Positions 24,850 through 33,482 of a stretch of 64,000 nt of DNA are shown piece by piece. The number at the start of each line of letters is the position of its first letter. The stretch's first letter is position 1. Source of the stretch: Bdellovibrionales bacterium RIFOXYC1_FULL_37_79 (GTDB lineage Bacteria > Bdellovibrionota > Bacteriovoracia > Bacteriovoracales > Bacteriovoracaceae); assembly GCA_001770015.1 (NCBI GenBank), contig MEQB01000012.1, forward strand, positions 1-64,000, in the 5' to 3' direction. Below the pieces are notes generated by a model. The model ran no database searches, was not told where the DNA came from, and saw nothing but the letters and a program-made list of their open reading frames with translations. Both the position numbers and the translations under genes were made by a program.

Positions 24850-26925
24850 ATGAATAACTTTTTGGACAAATTAAAATTAATGACAAAAAATTCTGATTTG
24901 ACAGTGGCCCTTGGGGTATTGTTAGTTCTGGGTGTCATGATTATTCCTATTCCTCCCTTGTTGCTTGATCTTTTGCTGGCACTGACCTTGGCCATGTCAG
25001 TGGTTATTCTTTTGGTGTCCATCTACTCGAAACGACCGCTGGATTTTTCCACCTTCCCTTCAATCCTGCTCATTACTACTTTGTTTAGATTGTCTTTAAA
25101 TGTGGCATCGACCAGGAATATTTTACTTAGAGGTGGTAGCGAAGGCACCAGTGCTGCTGGTGAAATAATTAGAACTTTTGGGGAATTTGTCGTTGAAGGC
25201 AATTATGCGGTTGGTATTATTATTTTTATTATTCTGGTGGTAATTAACTTTATGGTTATTACCAAAGGTGCTGGCCGGGTTGCTGAAGTAGCTGCCAGAT
25301 TTACTTTGGATGCCATGCCAGGAAAACAAATGGCCATTGATGCAGATTTAAATGCAGGTTTGATTGACGACAAAGAGGCCAAGCGCCGTAGAAAAGATAT
25401 AGCCGAAGAAGCCGATTTTTATGGTTCCATGGATGGTGCTTCCAAGTTTGTAAGAGGGGATGCCATTGCGGGTATTCTAATAACAGGTATTAACATTATC
25501 GGTGGTATTTTTGTTGGTTCCGTGCAAAACGGTATGGATATAGCCAGTGCGGCCCAAGTGTTTACTCTATTAACAGTTGGTGATGGCCTGGTAACCCAGA
25601 TACCCGCACTTATTATCTCTACTGCCGCCGGCTTGATTGCCACTAGAAACACCAGCGATAATGGGCTGGGATTCCAGGTGGGAAAACAGTTCAAAGTTCA
25701 CCCGAAGGCCATTTATATTGCGGCGGGAGTTTTATTTGTGTTTGCTCTTATTCCTGGTTTCCCTAAACTGCCATTTGTTTTGGTGGGATTGGCGCTGACA
25801 GGAGTTGCTTATTTTATCGAGCAATCTAACTTAAAAGAAGAGCAGCTTAAAACCAAAGAAGGAATCGAGGATGTTAAAGCGAAACCTGAAACGCTGGAAG
25901 ATCTGCTGGCACTTGAATTGGTTGAGTTGGAAGTGGGATATGGACTGGTCAATCTGGTTGATGCTGAACAAAATGGTGATTTACTTGAAAGAATCACCCA
26001 TATTAGAAAACAGTTTGCAACGGACTGGGGAATCATTATTCCTCCAATAAGGATTAAGGACAATTTAGAACTTCGTCCGGGTGGATATGTTTTTAAAATA
26101 AAAGGTATTCATGTTGCTGAGGGTGAGCTGATTAATGATCATATGCTGGCGATGGACCCTGGGTCAGTAATTGAAAAAATTGATGGAATTGAAACGGTCG
26201 AACCGGTTTTTGGACTCCCGGCGGTTTGGATCAATGAAGAACAAAAAGAAGATGCCCAGTATAACGGTTATACGGTGGTGGATTTATCAACCATTGTGGC
26301 CACCCATTTGACGGAAATTCTAAAAACCAATTTGCATGAGTTGTTTGGCAGACAGGAACTGGTGTCAGTGCTTGATAATTTTAAAGAACAGTATCCTAAA
26401 ATTGTTACCGATTTGATTCCCGAAATATTACCTTTGGGGATAATTTTAAAGGTGCTGCAAAATTTATTGCGGGAGGGGGTTTCCATCCGGGATTTAAGAA
26501 CCATTTTAGAAACCCTGTCTGAATTTGGAACAACTTTGAAAGACCCCAGTAGCTTAACCGAGTATGTCAGACAGGCGTTGTTTAGAACGATTACGGAAAA
26601 TATAAAAAGTGAGCAAGGGGACATACCACTCTTTACATTAGACCGGGCCATAGAAGAATCTTTGGCAAATAATATCGTGCAAACCGAAACGGGACATCAG
26701 CTATCGCTTGATCCCAGGGTAACCCAGCATTTGCTGGCCAGTTTAAATGAAAAAATTGAAGAGGCTACCGGGGCAGGAGAAAAGATGATTGTGCTTTGTT
26801 CCCCGGTCATTCGCCATCACTTCAAACGGTTGACTGAAAAATTTATACCCAATTTGATTGTTATTAGTCATAATGAATTGAGTCCTGATGCAAATATCAG
26901 ATCACTCGGGACGGTGAGGTTGTAA
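24850..26925 (+). CDS. flhA: Flagellar export gate protein FlhA
   Basis: 691 residues: eight membrane spans with the FHIPEP-family signature (RNILLRGG...AAGEIIRTFGEFVV and RFTLDAMPGKQMAIDADLNAGLI), then a linker and a four-subdomain cytoplasmic region that forms the nonameric substrate-docking ring. Full length and intact. The flhF ATG follows its stop codon with no gap. Confidence 0.98.
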   Translation: MNNFLDKLKLMTKNSDLTVALGVLLVLGVMIIPIPPLLLDLLLALTLAMSVVILLVSIYSKRPLDFSTFPSILLITTLFRLSLNVASTRNILLRGGSEGTSAAGEIIRTFGEFVVEGNYAVGIIIFIILVVINFMVITKGAGRVAEVAARFTLDAMPGKQMAIDADLNAGLIDDKEAKRRRKDIAEEADFYGSMDGASKFVRGDAIAGILITGINIIGGIFVGSVQNGMDIASAAQVFTLLTVGDGLVTQIPALIISTAAGLIATRNTSDNGLGFQVGKQFKVHPKAIYIAAGVLFVFALIPGFPKLPFVLVGLALTGVAYFIEQSNLKEEQLKTKEGIEDVKAKPETLEDLLALELVELEVGYGLVNLVDAEQNGDLLERITHIRKQFATDWGIIIPPIRIKDNLELRPGGYVFKIKGIHVAEGELINDHMLAMDPGSVIEKIDGIETVEPVFGLPAVWINEEQKEDAQYNGYTVVDLSTIVATHLTEILKTNLHELFGRQELVSVLDNFKEQYPKIVTDLIPEILPLGIILKVLQNLLREGVSIRDLRTILETLSEFGTTLKDPSSLTEYVRQALFRTITENIKSEQGDIPLFTLDRAIEESLANNIVQTETGHQLSLDPRVTQHLLASLNEKIEEATGAGEKMIVLCSPVIRHHFKRLTEKFIPNLIVISHNELSPDANIRSLGTVRL

Positions 26926-28365
26926 ATGTTTGTAAGAAAATTTCAAGCAGATTCATTGGAAGAGGCCCTTAAAGACATTAAATACCAATTGGGACCGGAT
27001 GCAATCATTTTAAAAACGATTACCAATAAAGGCCTCAAAGGTGCATTTAAGAAAAACCGGATTGAGATTACGGCGGCCATACCAGAGGGAAAACTTAAGG
27101 AAAAAATGCAGGTTGACCGGGCGTTAGGTGAAAATAAGGATGATTTTTATCAAAATAAATCATCTTACATATCCAACATGATTTCCAGCTATTCTTTGCA
27201 TGCGAAAGATGTACCCAAAAGGCCTGCGGCGGCAATCAATAATTCTTACGGTAATCTAGGTCTTAACAAGCCACCACTTGCCAAGAATATTTCTGAAGTG
27301 AGCGCTGGCCTGGATAGTTTTTTGAGTCAAAAGAGTCATAATGAAAAACCGGTTTTGCATTCTCAAAAAAATTCTTTTGACCAGGTGAATTCAGATGAGG
27401 ATTTGGATCATGATTCCTTTGAGGTTGAAAAAGGGGCAAGAGATCAAAACCCGACCTCGGCTGCCTATCAAACGGTTAAAAATGATTTTAGCCGTGATGA
27501 TTTTGAAAAACAAAAAAGAAAGATAGAAGAATTGGAAAGCAAGCTTTCAGAAATTGTAAAGAAAGTTGATAAATTCAGTAGGATTGAACCCAGCGGGTTA
27601 TATCAATTAAGAACCACGCTTCGAAGTTTGGATATCACTGAGCAATATATTCAAAAATTGATTCGCAAAGCAACTTTTGAATTCAAAGAAGAGGATTTAT
27701 CCAACGACGAGATGATTTTTGAATTTGCCCTTAGAGAGATGCTTCATAGTATATCTGTTGAAATGCCATTATTTTCTTCGCTCGACTCGGATAAGCGTCC
27801 GGTGGTTACGGTTTTGATCTCCGAAACATCATCAGGGCAATCCACCATGGTGATGAAACTTGGATCTTTAAAGAAAAATTCGGTGGTCATTAGAAATGTA
27901 AAAGTGTGCGATGAACTTAAAAAGTCAATATCGGAACAACTGCTCAATATTGAGATTATCAATGTTTCAAGTATCGCTGAAATCATGTCCGAGACAAGAA
28001 AAAATATTGAGAAAGGCAAATCAGTTTTTATTGATTATAAAAATTTTCAAAAAGAATTTAATGAAACAAAGAAATTTGTTGAGGGGCTTAAAAGATCTTT
28101 TGATCATGTGGAAATATTGGTCTCTCTTTCGGCAATCCATTCTGAATTGTATAATAAGAAAGTGTTGTCAACTTACAAAACACTGGTTGATGGACTGATA
28201 TATTCGCATCTGGATTTGTGTTTGAATTTCGGAGCCATTTTCAATGCTCTGGAAGGTGAGAAGGCCATACCTGCTAAGTTTTTTGGAACAGGTCCGGTTA
28301 TGCCAGATGATATCGAGGCAGCAAGTGCGGAAAGGATTTTGGACAGTATTTTTAAATTTGATTAA
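26926..28365 (+). CDS. flhF: FlhF-like protein with degenerate GTPase motifs
   Basis: 479 residues. The N terminus (MFVRKFQADSLEEALKDIKYQLGPDAIILKT) is the standard FlhF start; a long low-complexity linker and a short coiled coil follow. The C-terminal half aligns with the SRP-type NG domain, but its nucleotide motifs are changed: P-loop 299-307 reads SETSSGQST instead of GPTGVGKTT (Lys to Gln at 305), DTAGR is DYKNF (370-374), and TKLDE is SHLDL (427-431). The end FFGTGPVMPDDIE is still FlhF-like. FlhF normally uses GTP to place the flagellum at the pole; this version probably does not bind GTP well. The reading frame is intact, so it is not a pseudogene. Confidence 0.85.
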   Translation: MFVRKFQADSLEEALKDIKYQLGPDAIILKTITNKGLKGAFKKNRIEITAAIPEGKLKEKMQVDRALGENKDDFYQNKSSYISNMISSYSLHAKDVPKRPAAAINNSYGNLGLNKPPLAKNISEVSAGLDSFLSQKSHNEKPVLHSQKNSFDQVNSDEDLDHDSFEVEKGARDQNPTSAAYQTVKNDFSRDDFEKQKRKIEELESKLSEIVKKVDKFSRIEPSGLYQLRTTLRSLDITEQYIQKLIRKATFEFKEEDLSNDEMIFEFALREMLHSISVEMPLFSSLDSDKRPVVTVLISETSSGQSTMVMKLGSLKKNSVVIRNVKVCDELKKSISEQLLNIEIINVSSIAEIMSETRKNIEKGKSVFIDYKNFQKEFNETKKFVEGLKRSFDHVEILVSLSAIHSELYNKKVLSTYKTLVDGLIYSHLDLCLNFGAIFNALEGEKAIPAKFFGTGPVMPDDIEAASAERILDSIFKFD

Positions 28366-28403: not shown

Positions 28404-29288
28404 ATGTCGAATAGTAATGCCGGAAATTGGCTTTTATCTCAAAATAAATTTGAACATAATATTGGTAAAAAACTAAGTAGAAAGGCCATAACCGTTTCGG
28501 TGACCAGTGGAAAAGGTGGAGTCGGTAAGACTTCTATTTCAATTAAAATCGCCAGAATGCTTGCTGAAAAAGGATTTAAAGTCTTAGTAATTGATTGTGA
28601 CTATAATTTATCCAACACATTTATAAAATTAAATCTTCCTATCAAGGATGATTTTAATTTTTTAATCAGCGGGGTTAAAACCTTTGACGAGTGTATTTAC
28701 AAAGATGGTAATTTCCATTTGCTGGCAGCCTGCAGTGGCGATCTCGACTTGTTTGATCGAGAAATTCATTTGGATCAATTTATTTTAAATTTACTCTTAC
28801 AGATTGAAAACCGTTACGATTATATTGTTTTGGACTCACCGGCCGGGATTAATAAACAGGCTATGACCATCAATGCGTACAGTGATTATCGATTAGTGGT
28901 GGTGACTCCCGATAAATCATCCATAACGGATTCGTATTCGCTGATTAAAATCCTTAATAAGAAGTACGGGGTCAAGGAAAACCATCTTATTGTTAATAAA
29001 ATATCCTCTGAAGCGCAATATAAGAGAATTGTCCAAATCATGAGCGAAACAGTCGAGAATTTTTTAGCATCAAGACTAAAAATCATGGGCGGAATTGGCC
29101 GGAATAATCGGGCTATCGATATTTTTGACAGGGAATTATTTGACCAGTCCAAAGATTTGCATAAGGATTTTTGTAATATCATTAGCCGCTTTACCGAGGA
29201 GAGTCTAGGTTGTTGTGATGATAATCATTGCGGCAATCTAAACTACGGATGCGTAGATGACTTAAAACATGAGGTTTTAAACCAGTAA
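28404..29288 (+). CDS. flhG: FlhG (FleN/YlxH) MinD-type ATPase
   Basis: 294 residues. The deviant Walker A SGKGGVGKTS (K37, K41), VIDCDYNLSN and VLDSPAGI mark a MinD/ParA-type ATPase; next to flhF it is FlhG, which limits flagellar number. The N-terminal extension (about 28 residues, NAGNWLLSQNKFEHNI) shows no DQAxxLR motif, the element with which FlhG stimulates FlhF GTPase. The C terminus has a Cys/His-rich tail (CCDDNHCGNLNYGC), possibly metal-binding, in place of a clear amphipathic membrane helix. AGGAGA precedes the ATG. Confidence 0.92.
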   Translation: MSNSNAGNWLLSQNKFEHNIGKKLSRKAITVSVTSGKGGVGKTSISIKIARMLAEKGFKVLVIDCDYNLSNTFIKLNLPIKDDFNFLISGVKTFDECIYKDGNFHLLAACSGDLDLFDREIHLDQFILNLLLQIENRYDYIVLDSPAGINKQAMTINAYSDYRLVVVTPDKSSITDSYSLIKILNKKYGVKENHLIVNKISSEAQYKRIVQIMSETVENFLASRLKIMGGIGRNNRAIDIFDRELFDQSKDLHKDFCNIISRFTEESLGCCDDNHCGNLNYGCVDDLKHEVLNQ

Positions 29289-29303: not shown

Positions 29304-30089
29304 ATGTCATCTCTCTCAAAACAACTGAGAAATTTAAAAGATTATCGTTCAACCGTGGACCCCAAGGTCAAAGATGAGATCATTATAGAGTATGCTCCGC
29401 TCATCAAGTTTATTGCTTTAAAAATAGCCTCCCGGCTTCCGTCCAATATTGAACTGGATGATTTGATTTCTTGTGGAGTCATAGGGCTTATGGATGCCAT
29501 AGAAAAATTTGACCCCGAAAGAGATAACAAATTTAAAACGTATGCGGAATTTAGAATCAGAGGTGCCATCTTGGATGAACTAAGGGCCCAGGATTGGGTG
29601 CCCAGATCTGTTCGCGAAAAGGCTAAGTTGGTGGAAAAAACCTATTCCAAATTGGAAGCCAGTCTTGGCAGACCGGCCACCGATGAAGAGATGTGCAAAG
29701 AGCTGAGTATTTCCCAAGATGAATTTTATGATCTCCTCAACAAGGCCAAATCAATTTCTCTTCTTAATATTGATGATTCAGCCTTGTTTAATCGTGGGGA
29801 TAAAAAGTTGATGGCCGGCCTTTTGGAAAATAGTAGAAGTGCCAATCCCTACAATGCCGTCAGCCACAAAAATTTGAGAGATACTTTGAAGGAAGGGATT
29901 AAAACCCTTCCCGAAAAACAAAGATTGGTGCTTTCGCTTTATTACTATGAGGATTTGAATTTAAAAGAAATTGGTCAGGTGCTTGATGTTACCGAATCAA
30001 GGGTGTCCCAGTTACATACCCAGGCCTTGATCAAATTAAAAACTAAGCTAAGAAATCTGGTGGATTACCAGGAGGATATGGCAGGTTAA
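29304..30089 (+). CDS. fliA: Sigma-28 factor FliA
   Basis: 261 residues with sigma regions 2 (LPSNIELDDLISCGVIGLMDAIEKFDP, KFKTYAEFRIRGAILDELR), 3 and 4 (LPEKQRLVLSLYYYEDLNLKEIGQVLDVTESRVSQLHTQAL). This is the flagellar sigma factor that reads late genes such as flagellin. A strong AAGGAG precedes the ATG and the gap from flhG is 15 bp. The best FliA-type promoter in the window is at 7660. Confidence 0.97.
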   Translation: MSSLSKQLRNLKDYRSTVDPKVKDEIIIEYAPLIKFIALKIASRLPSNIELDDLISCGVIGLMDAIEKFDPERDNKFKTYAEFRIRGAILDELRAQDWVPRSVREKAKLVEKTYSKLEASLGRPATDEEMCKELSISQDEFYDLLNKAKSISLLNIDDSALFNRGDKKLMAGLLENSRSANPYNAVSHKNLRDTLKEGIKTLPEKQRLVLSLYYYEDLNLKEIGQVLDVTESRVSQLHTQALIKLKTKLRNLVDYQEDMAG

Positions 30090-30096
30090 TACCAAT

Positions 30097-31044
30097 ATGG
30101 ATAGATATTGTAATTCATATCTGGATAAAACTTTCGAGGCGCTGGATAACCTGACTGCACTGGTGGGGTCGAATGCCTTGCCGATTGTTCATCAGATTGG
30201 ATTTTATTTATCAGAAACCAAAAGGCTTGAAGAAAAAGATCAAAAGCTTGAAAAAATCGAGGGAGTTGTTTTTGATTTTATTCATAATTCGTTTAAGGAA
30301 CTCTTGACCTGTTTTTTCACAGCGAATAAACATATAAAGGAATTTACACTCACCGGAAAAGGGGAGAATTATTCTTTTTCCAACTGGAATAAGATTTTTG
30401 AAACCTTGCCTGGCTTATTACAGGTTATCAATTTTTTTCAAATTGAAAATGAAGTTGAACTTATTTTGGAAGATAATGGTATTAGAGTTATCACTTGTCT
30501 GGTGGAAAATCAAAACATCACCGGTTTTAGAAAAAAGTGTTATGCAATTTTAAGAGATTTAATTAAGAAAAAAACGCTTTTGACATATAAAATTACCAAA
30601 AATGACAATATCAAACTTGATCTTTTTTTAAACATCTCCCATAGCGAAGATATGATGTATGAGTGTCTGATTAACCAAAACCGAAAAATCAAATTAGGTT
30701 TTTCTAACATATTTGAGCAATATCAAATTAGTGAACATGAGGCAGCCTCTCTTCCTTTGCATTTATGTCTGGAAATAACCGAAGATTTGCAATTGAAAAA
30801 ACATCAAGGGATACCCAAGCAATTTACACAGGTTTTAGGAGAGTTCCAGATTATTCATTTTTCCTTTCTATTTCGCCTGGTTTCCATCATAATACCATTT
30901 AGAGGAAAGCTTATAAAAACTTCCTCACATCAAAGATCAGGAGACACAGGACGTGGTGACACTTTGGGCCTTAGACGGGATGTTAATGTTCTGGGCATGC
31001 ATGTGTGCCGTTACGTTGACTTGTTTAAGATTATTTCAGATTAA
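30097..31044 (+). CDS. Hypothetical protein downstream of fliA
   Basis: Not recognised. 315 residues, cytoplasmic, no signal peptide or span. The N-terminal third is helical; the middle is alternating alpha/beta (VELILEDNGIRVITCLVENQNITGF...). The last 50 residues are basic and end GMHVCRYVDLFKIISD. It starts 8 bp after fliA and is followed 30 bp later by the membrane sensor-like gene, so all three are probably one transcript. A role in flagellar control or signalling is inference from position. Confidence 0.75.
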   Translation: MDRYCNSYLDKTFEALDNLTALVGSNALPIVHQIGFYLSETKRLEEKDQKLEKIEGVVFDFIHNSFKELLTCFFTANKHIKEFTLTGKGENYSFSNWNKIFETLPGLLQVINFFQIENEVELILEDNGIRVITCLVENQNITGFRKKCYAILRDLIKKKTLLTYKITKNDNIKLDLFLNISHSEDMMYECLINQNRKIKLGFSNIFEQYQISEHEAASLPLHLCLEITEDLQLKKHQGIPKQFTQVLGEFQIIHFSFLFRLVSIIIPFRGKLIKTSSHQRSGDTGRGDTLGLRRDVNVLGMHVCRYVDLFKIISD

Positions 31045-31073: not shown

Positions 31074-33482
31074 ATGCGTTTTAAAGCTGGAAAAAGTATT
31101 CAGTTTTTTTATTTTTTCACTTTGCTGCTGGTGTTAGGTGGCATGTGTTCCTGGTTTTATTATTTTTTTCAAAACGGGGCATTAAATAGTGAAGTTATCT
31201 GGACGCTATCGGAATCATCGCAGGAAGTGGAACGGCTGCGCACGGAAAATCAGATTTCAAAAATTGATCAGTGGATGCTTGCGGGAAGAGTCAGGGATGC
31301 CATTGGTGCCATGAGTACGGTGGAGAAAACGTCTAAAATCATGGATCGAAACGTCAAACATTTTCCAAAGGAATATAAGGCATTTTTAGAAAGTTCAAAC
31401 AACCTGAAGTCCATTCTTAATAATCTGTTATCACTTCCAGATGTATTGGTGGTATTAAATGTGCTTCATAAAAAATTTGAACATTTTCAAAATTCGGCAA
31501 AAGAAAACAAATGGCCGACGCTGACCAGGATCAGTAGCGTGATGTTGATTGAACTGGATGCCAATAATTTAAAGAAAATTGACTTTTTCAATTATAGTAA
31601 AATGCACAGGATCGACAGTAATCTTGGTCGAAGTTTAAAAAGTATGGAAAATATCACTAACGGTTCTACACTTTCCACTTTTGATAAAACTACCATTATG
31701 GCAAAGTTGCAAAATTTCAAGGTGGAGCAGGAGATGCTTGGTAGCTATCTGCCTGAATTAAAAAAATATGCAGAGGAATATCAAAAATTGAATATTGCGT
31801 ACAATTCCTGGCTTAAATTAATAGAACCAGAAATTGCCATTGCGAAAATGAGTTTTCAAAAAAATTCACAGATGATGATTGTTGGTTTCGCGGGGATGTT
31901 GGTTTTTTTGTTATTGGCCATCGTGTTTGGCTTTTGGCTTTATAAAAAAAATGTTTATGTATCCATTAAAAAAATTGAAACCAGAATATTGGAGTGTGTG
32001 CAAGAGGGTATCATTGCCCCCGATTTTAGAATGAATGATCATTTCTCGAAGGATTTCTATCAAGAGATGCAAAAATACCATTCGTGGGTGAAAAGTCGGA
32101 TGAGTTTTGGAAATATTTTTCAGGAAGCCCTTCCTTTTCCGGCACTGCTACTTGATTCTAATTTGAATCTGGTATGGGCGAACACCCTGTTTTACTCGGA
32201 ATGGAATTTAAATGAATATAAAAATAAAAGAGATGCACTCAACTGGGAATTTTTACAACGTTTTACCAATCTAGGTGAAAACGATCCTATATTGGAAGCG
32301 CTAAACAATAACCTGGCAGGTATTTACCAGATACAGGTCAAACAGGAACAAAGGGATCTGGCCCCCTATGAAATGTACATATCTCCGGTGGTAATAGATG
32401 ATCAAAAAAGAATTATGGTGTTTTTCTATCCACTCATGTTTCTAGAAGAGACCATAAAAGATCAGAAAAAATCCTTATTAGGCCCGGTCTGCAGATCCTT
32501 AGAAGCTCTTATTCGAGGGGATTTTGATAAAGAGTTCAGGGATAAAGTCAGAGGGGATTTTAATATTGCTGGAATTGAGTCAGTATTTGGGAAGTTTATA
32601 AAACTGGCGGAATTTTTGACCCAGCAAAAAAATGGACTAGTTGGAGAAATTGAGCGGTTGGAAAATGAGTTGTATGACCGGCATAAACTGCTTTGTGATG
32701 TAAAAACCATATTATTGAAGCAGGATGCCTACGTGAAAAGCGAAGTTAAGGATTTTCAAGAGAGCAAGGATCTAATTATACGATTGGTTGAACTGCGAAG
32801 AAAAACGGAACAAATTTATTTGACGACCATCAATGCTTCCAAAATCATGCTCAAAGAGCAATGTAACCTTTATGATCAATCCACCCAATTGGTGAACAAT
32901 CATGAAGAGAATTTGAAAATATATCGCAATATTGGATCTTCGAGAGAAGCATTTAAAGAAGCCTTGATAAATATTGATAACTGTAAATCCAATGTAACTC
33001 AGACGCTTGAGCAAACCTTGATTTTTACCAAGTCAGCAAAGATTAATCCAGAAAGCTTTTCTGGCTCTCTTATGAAAATCAAATTGGAATTGCGGGCCTT
33101 GGATAAGGAGATTGGACAGTTTGTTTCTAATTTAAAAAACTTTGATGTGCATCTTTCCAAAATGCAGATGATGATAGCTGATGTTAAACCACCTGATCTT
33201 AATGAATATAGAAAAAAAGTTGATATGACCAGAAACCATATTGAAAATGATACATTCAACATGGGGGTTAATGCCAAAGAGGGGCAAAAAATTGATGAAG
33301 ATATTATTGCTCGTATGAAATCATTTTATGAAAATATAAAAGGTAATCTGGATACGTTGACCAAGATCAGTCAGTTAACAGCTGACTTAAGCCAGGAGCC
33401 GGGCAGTCCGGCGGAGGATAAACCTCTAAGTGCCGAAGATGATCAAATTGTTTATCATAACGAAAGCTCTTTTGAAACGTAG
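31074..33482 (+). CDS. Membrane PAS/coiled-coil protein, chemoreceptor-like without signalling tip
   Basis: 802 residues. Span 1 near residues 10-30, a helical periplasmic domain to about 265, span 2 near 266-290 (GFAGMLVFLLLAIVFGFWLYKK), a HAMP-length linker, a PAS-like domain from about 344 (ALPFPALLLDSNLNLVWANTLFY), then a long coiled coil (about 520-770). This is the layout of a methyl-accepting protein, but the conserved hairpin tip (E...FAVVADEVR) is absent and there is no kinase or cyclase domain. AAAGGAT precedes the ATG. Position after fliA suggests a motility-linked sensor or scaffold (inference). It ends 18 bp from the convergent fhs. Confidence 0.75.
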   Translation: MRFKAGKSIQFFYFFTLLLVLGGMCSWFYYFFQNGALNSEVIWTLSESSQEVERLRTENQISKIDQWMLAGRVRDAIGAMSTVEKTSKIMDRNVKHFPKEYKAFLESSNNLKSILNNLLSLPDVLVVLNVLHKKFEHFQNSAKENKWPTLTRISSVMLIELDANNLKKIDFFNYSKMHRIDSNLGRSLKSMENITNGSTLSTFDKTTIMAKLQNFKVEQEMLGSYLPELKKYAEEYQKLNIAYNSWLKLIEPEIAIAKMSFQKNSQMMIVGFAGMLVFLLLAIVFGFWLYKKNVYVSIKKIETRILECVQEGIIAPDFRMNDHFSKDFYQEMQKYHSWVKSRMSFGNIFQEALPFPALLLDSNLNLVWANTLFYSEWNLNEYKNKRDALNWEFLQRFTNLGENDPILEALNNNLAGIYQIQVKQEQRDLAPYEMYISPVVIDDQKRIMVFFYPLMFLEETIKDQKKSLLGPVCRSLEALIRGDFDKEFRDKVRGDFNIAGIESVFGKFIKLAEFLTQQKNGLVGEIERLENELYDRHKLLCDVKTILLKQDAYVKSEVKDFQESKDLIIRLVELRRKTEQIYLTTINASKIMLKEQCNLYDQSTQLVNNHEENLKIYRNIGSSREAFKEALINIDNCKSNVTQTLEQTLIFTKSAKINPESFSGSLMKIKLELRALDKEIGQFVSNLKNFDVHLSKMQMMIADVKPPDLNEYRKKVDMTRNHIENDTFNMGVNAKEGQKIDEDIIARMKSFYENIKGNLDTLTKISQLTADLSQEPGSPAEDKPLSAEDDQIVYHNESSFET

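Follow-up and report, generated by a model that had tools for sequence, protein, structure and literature searches.

The locus described here lies in a stretch of 64,000 nucleotides (the window) from the genome of Bdellovibrionales bacterium RIFOXYC1_FULL_37_79. An uninterrupted ORF of 479 codons occupies positions 26926-28365 of the forward strand, its first base directly following the stop codon of flhA (24850-26925, +; Pfam PF00771, E 1.7e-273). Upstream of flhA are fliL, fliM, fliN, fliO, fliP, fliQ, fliR and flhB. Downstream of the ORF are flhG (28404-29288, +) and a gene encoding a FliA/WhiG-type sigma factor (29304-30089, +; TIGR02479, 273 bits, above the cut-off), giving the order flhB-flhA-flhF-flhG-fliA. 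This is the neighbourhood looked for in an flhF orthologue, and 26926-28365 is the usual place of flhF. FliG is likewise encoded in this genome. After fliA we noticed two ORFs, of 315 (30097-31044) and 802 amino acids (31074-33482), without a Pfam match; the longer one resembles a membrane-anchored coiled-coil protein, and both may be clade-specific flagellar genes.

The N-terminus of the 479-residue product matches the FlhF model TIGR03499 (E 2.7e-20), in agreement with an earlier sequence-only reading that had called this domain FlhF-like; the score of 73.5 bits does not reach the curated cut-off of 174.15. With Pfam SRP54 (PF00448) no match is obtained, even at E up to 1. When a profile built from the clade is searched against the PDB, the best match is the solved FlhF 2px0 (E 4.5e-11). 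Matches of the same profile to influenza haemagglutinin were dismissed, as they are weak by E-value and confined to the linker and the helices next to it.

Three regions can be told apart. Residues 1-60 (26926-27105, +) form the B domain, the FliG-interaction domain of FlhF; with a mean conservation of 0.80 they vary less across the class than any other part of the protein. They align with canonical FlhF with many positions in common, as a B domain should, and match the FlhF chain 9en1 (E 0.0005). Residues 96-190 (27211-27495, +) are a disordered, fast-evolving linker with pLDDT mostly below 50, followed by the NG domain. AlphaFold2, run on the clade's own alignment, returned confident B and NG domains on either side of the disordered linker, at a mean pLDDT of 77. 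The predicted NG domain superimposes on solved FlhF 8r9r (Z 22.5, 3.3 A, 242 residues aligned) and 2px3 (Z 22.3, 2.9 A, 240 aligned), and about as well on FtsY. The NG fold is thereby predicted to be retained, which carries no information on nucleotide binding. By descent, place, B domain and fold, the protein is FlhF.

Replacement of the GTPase motifs and its distribution

The sequence-only reading had reported that the open frame carries SETSSGQST in place of the P-loop, DYKNF in place of DTAGR and SHLDL in place of TKLDE, and we find all three exactly as described, at residues 299-307 (27820-27846, +), 370-374 (28033-28047, +) and 427-431 (28204-28218, +). Its wording that all three motifs are changed holds only in part: the P-loop has lost its first Gly and its Lys, DTAGR its Gly and TKxD its Lys, but G304, Ser/Thr306, D370 and D430 are kept. 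Since the Asp residues of motifs III and IV and the hydroxyl residue at 306 remain, the pocket could still bind a ligand of some kind.

Close relatives were found by name search among Bacteriovorax, Halobacteriovorax marinus and Bacteriovoracaceae MAGs; from the relatives' names and their kinship codes, the class concerned is Bacteriovoracia, and the sampled class members all fall in one family. Motifs were counted in an alignment that set 95 distinct class sequences against 33 FlhFs from 11 other families in the phylum. Every class sequence (95/95) has S299 for the first P-loop Gly and Q305 for the Lys, whereas both Gly and Lys are present in all 33 sequences outside, and the window protein does not satisfy GxxGxGKT (motif I). 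A scan for positions that are more than 80% fixed within each group but differ in residue between the two returned five sites, of which only S299 and Q305 are perfect. Because the same two replacements are fixed in 95 distinct relatives, the P-loop change is neither a chance event nor an assembly error. The question raised by the sequence-only reading, whether the changes recur across the clade, is thereby answered with yes for the whole class.

The other motifs are affected as well. The insertion-box motif II, sought as D-x-x-K/R-x4-D/E-Q-L and in the tighter form D-x-Y/F-K/R-x4-E/D-Q-L, is lost from the window protein; the loose pattern occurs in 26 of the 33 sequences outside versus 2 of the 95 inside the class, and both in-class matches come from the window's genus and lie outside the proper motif context. 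Motif III (DxxG, DTAGR) is not met, as its Gly is gone and its Asp stays (D370, 94/95). Motif IV (TKxD) is not met either, its Lys being replaced in nearly all class members, mostly by His, Asn or Tyr, with D430 kept in 94/94. The class further retains G304 (94/95), Ser or Thr at 306 (92/95), K311, G456 and D462. In the predicted NG domain the replaced residues occupy the positions of the canonical site. A nucleotide site rebuilt from other residues would have spoken against the sequence-only reading; in a check that was run only in part, no substitute Lys conserved near the pocket was found, the sole Lys there being K311, which canonical FlhF also has. Judged by its motifs, none of the four tested being met, the protein is not an SRP-type GTPase.

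FlhF was found in 119 of 129 class genomes. Nine of the ten genomes without flhF also gave no flhA match at the threshold used; in the tenth, G064, the flhA match covers only 620 of 691 residues, probably owing to a contig end. As the genomes lacking flhF nearly all lack an flhA match too, flhF is retained together with the flagellum. An IQ-TREE tree built with the motif columns removed placed the class on one side of a branch with support 100/100, the stem measuring 2.36 changes per site, and the replaced state needs one change on this tree. The class-wide loss of the canonical motifs is established, and the tree shows a single origin for it. Two MAG copies of FlhF contain internal stops, one (TAG) in G142:C25:18229-19629 and two (TGA, TAG) in G114:C28:4181-5647; these may be assembly errors or real interruptions.

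Selection was examined by comparing the window gene with that of its congener, at 87.7% identity. The G domain showed dN 0.0127 and dS 0.638 (dN/dS about 0.02) and the B domain dN 0.018 and dS 1.02, with 97% amino acid identity in both, whereas the linker, at 57% identity, gave dN 0.28 and a saturated dS of 2.6. The substitution pattern is that of a gene under purifying selection, not of a decaying one.

The neighbouring ATPase FlhG

The product of the adjoining flhG is a MinD-type ATPase by MinD/ParA profile matches and by its predicted fold (Z 29.9 to FleN 5j1j, 28.6 to FlhG 4rz3), and its deviant Walker A motif, GKGGVGKT, is intact. In canonical FlhG an N-terminal enhancer helix, DQAxxLR, stimulates the FlhF GTPase through its Gln (PMC12826062). 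We found this motif in none of 101 class FlhGs, a set in which some genomes were fetched twice. Near its position, 98 of the 101 carry a motif of the type x-x-W-L-(L/M/x)-S, which in the window reads NWLLSQN (FlhG residues 8-14; 28425-28445, +); W9 and L10 are invariant in a 28-row alignment, and a short helix is predicted here at low confidence. The class members without the WL motif are L046 and L031/L109. In L046 the motif IV region of FlhF is unusually divergent as well, a hint that the WL motif and the pseudo-G domain may co-vary.

Outgroups with intact FlhF motifs and an adjoining flhG mostly carry DQAxxLR (L052, L057, L061-L063, L148, L150, L154, L157). The motif is absent from the FlhG of L149, next to an FlhF with intact motifs, and Pseudomonas FleN lacks it too. 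The co-loss in the class therefore fits a rewired switch without proving it. No flhG was found in the fetched stretches of L147, L151-L153, L155, L156, L158, L159, L164, L051, L054 and L055, where the ORF directly after an flhF with an intact P-loop is a different one, in several cases fliA-like; flhG may have been lost or relocated in these lineages. To take the loss of DQAxxLR as proof that FlhF GTPase activity is lost would be too strong, contradicted by L149, by FleN and by the outgroups without flhG near flhF.

A proposed nucleotide-independent tether and its alternatives

The canonical GTPase motifs are absent from the class, and we consider it likely, by inference, that functional GTP binding is absent with them. 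The suggestion that the protein is a pseudo-GTPase that kept a scaffold or targeting role is supported to this extent, and neither the genome search nor the structural model refutes it. Our preferred explanation, held with moderate confidence, is that Bacteriovoracia FlhF is a conserved pseudo-GTPase tether, which keeps FliG in its polar position and leaves switching to FlhG. The protein would keep the B-N-G architecture without the residues that hold and hydrolyse GTP; the B domain would capture FliG, and hence the first FliF-FliG complexes, while the pseudo-G domain would dock on an inferred polar partner, its former pocket having become a fixed protein-contact surface. As such an FlhF could not switch between GTP-bound dimer and GDP-bound monomer, numerical control would be left to FlhG, whose ATPase cycle would be the remaining switch that sets flagellar number. 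The WLxS motif may be a new contact of FlhG with FlhF or with the C-ring, a role that is likewise inferred. For the fuller scheme, a once-derived pseudo-GTPase of the SRP family that tethers either nucleotide-free or with another ligand, with only the FlhG ATPase cycling and a WLxS docking motif in place of the activator helix, we see about even chances.

Several reports bear on the tether. Shewanella FlhF cannot bind FliG without its first 60 residues, which also suffice on their own, and its NG domain binds the pole protein HubP with or without GTP or GDP (PMC11236974). For Bacteriovorax stolpii and B. starrii a single sheathed flagellum, polar in position, has been described (PMC7175336); the Gln of this FlhF is present in MAGs that bear the B. 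stolpii label (L105, L115, L121), so polar flagellation persists with it. Against the tether, by analogy, stands P. aeruginosa, in which FlhF binds FliG in the GTP-bound state and the binding is reported to need GTP (PMC12713375). For this clade we came across no data on binding or localisation and none from knock-outs. The FimV/HubP core (TIGR03505) was looked for in 20 relatives without a match, but the control genomes gave none either, and so this search is not informative on absence.

Substitutions in Vibrio FlhF bear on the retained pocket residues. T306A and D439A are the two that abolish flagellation, and G299A, K305A and K437A impair function, K305A leaving part of it (PMC6092412). Vibrio T306 and D439 are the counterparts of window residues 306 and 430, the agreement of P-loop numbering being coincidental. 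The class thus retains, as Ser/Thr and Asp, the two positions at which substitution abolishes flagellation in Vibrio; Gly299, Lys305 and Lys437, where it only impairs function, are the ones replaced. Given this, and given that Ser/Thr306, D370, D430 and G456 remain, the pocket may still bind something. One alternative, which we regard as possible though doubtful, is that D430, the closing-loop G456 and the hydroxyl at 306 together hold a guanine nucleotide in it, in a weak or static manner, with neither the Lys nor hydrolysis involved; the nucleotide would then be a structural cofactor. That D430 and G456 rank with the most conserved positions in the class, that the two most sensitive Vibrio positions are retained and that K305A is partly functional would fit this. 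It is opposed by the uniform replacement of the P-loop Lys and first Gly, the loss of the TKxD Lys in nearly all members and the disappearance of motif II, and structural needs may account for the retention of Asp370 and Asp430.

It is less probable still, and we think it unlikely, that the remodelled pocket binds another small ligand, such as a different nucleotide or a second messenger, and makes FlhF a sensor rather than a plain tether. No residue of the protein is more strictly fixed than S299, Q305 and G304, and simple loss would not demand this. Against a ligand, there is no direct evidence for one, and a fixed protein-contact surface would account for this conservation as well.

The remaining alternatives were rejected. 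That a second, canonical FlhF does the GTP-dependent work elsewhere and the window protein is a specialised paralogue is highly improbable. The sequence-only reading had named such a copy as what would overturn it; none turned up when the own genome was searched with the FlhF family model, the SRP54 model and the protein itself, though with an assembly of 4.36 Mb on 74 contigs that is about 96% complete a missing copy is conceivable. The class profile finds one FlhF per genome in nearly all members. One MAG (G078; contigs C20 and C1) has two matches, alike in their score against this profile, and as its bin is 9% contaminated it probably represents two organisms. The two strong SRP54 matches in the own genome are FtsY-like (C38) and Ffh-like (C2) by length and sequence start, and both have canonical GxxGxGKTT, DTFRAAA/DTYRPAA and DTAGR, which excludes a general sequencing problem. 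A relaxed gene heading for loss, or a sequencing or assembly error, is scarcely credible: the long stem branch and the loss of several motifs could be read that way, but open frames across the class, the low dN/dS of the G domain, the identical replacements in 95 distinct sequences and the absence of flhF mainly where flhA is also not found contradict it.

The tether reading points to the possibility of polar flagellum placement without an FlhF GTP switch, in a class that is mostly predatory and has polar flagella. To what extent FlhF needs GTP is a species-dependent question, since GTP-dependent dimerisation has been called crucial and yet a Vibrio catalytic mutant is nearly normal (PMC6092412); by fixing the loss of the P-loop Lys in a whole class, nature has run an experiment in which tethering is set apart from switching, so that the question can be put directly to one protein. 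In the open-access literature, which leaves out subscription papers and preprints, we found no paper joining FlhF with pseudo-GTPase, Bacteriovorax or Halobacteriovorax, and none joining pseudoGTPase with signal recognition particle. If the reading is true, there is a pseudo-GTPase in the family of Ffh, FtsY and FlhF, where we found none described in that literature.

Comparison with known systems

The FlhFs of B. subtilis (2px0/2px3), S. putrefaciens (8r9r) and V. alginolyticus have in common with the window protein the B-linker-NG layout, the flhA-flhF-flhG-fliA order, the predicted NG fold (Z 22.0-22.5) and a conserved N-terminal FliG-binding region. In contrast, the window protein has SxxxxGQ(S/T) for GxxGxGKT, has lost motif II, shows eroded DTAGR and TKxD, and is only 12-19% identical to solved FlhF NG domains. 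Its FlhG shares the MinD-type ATPase fold with FleN and FlhG (5j1j, 4rz3) and differs in the class-specific N-terminal WLxS motif.

Other Bdellovibrionota FlhFs are homologous and lie in the same neighbourhood, and unlike those of Bacteriovoracia they keep the P-loop Gly and Lys (33/33). Within this outgroup, families f6 and f21 (L058, L162, L163, L165) keep GKT, have DYTGL, DYPGL, DFSGL or DHPGM as motif III and have lost the Lys of TKxD, and their adjoining FlhG lacks DQAxxLR. In f6, probably Bdellovibrionaceae, motif III is DYTGL/DYPGL and motif IV TSLDE/TGLDE. As motifs III and IV are eroded but the P-loop Gly and Lys are kept, f6 looks like a half-way state of GTPase erosion, and from their sequences such a state is possible for both families.

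The Vibrio mutants G299A, K305A, K437A and R334A concern the same positions and leave partial function; R334A, which has no GTPase activity, localises and supports flagella normally (PMC6092412). These are single, laboratory-made substitutions, most of which precipitated on purification (PMC6092412), whereas in the class many changes occur together and have become fixed in nature. Tsr1, which mimics translational GTPases but is inactive, likewise has a GTPase-like fold without the active-site residues and a structural role (PMC4895721); it differs in being a eukaryotic translational-GTPase mimic rather than an SRP-family NG domain.
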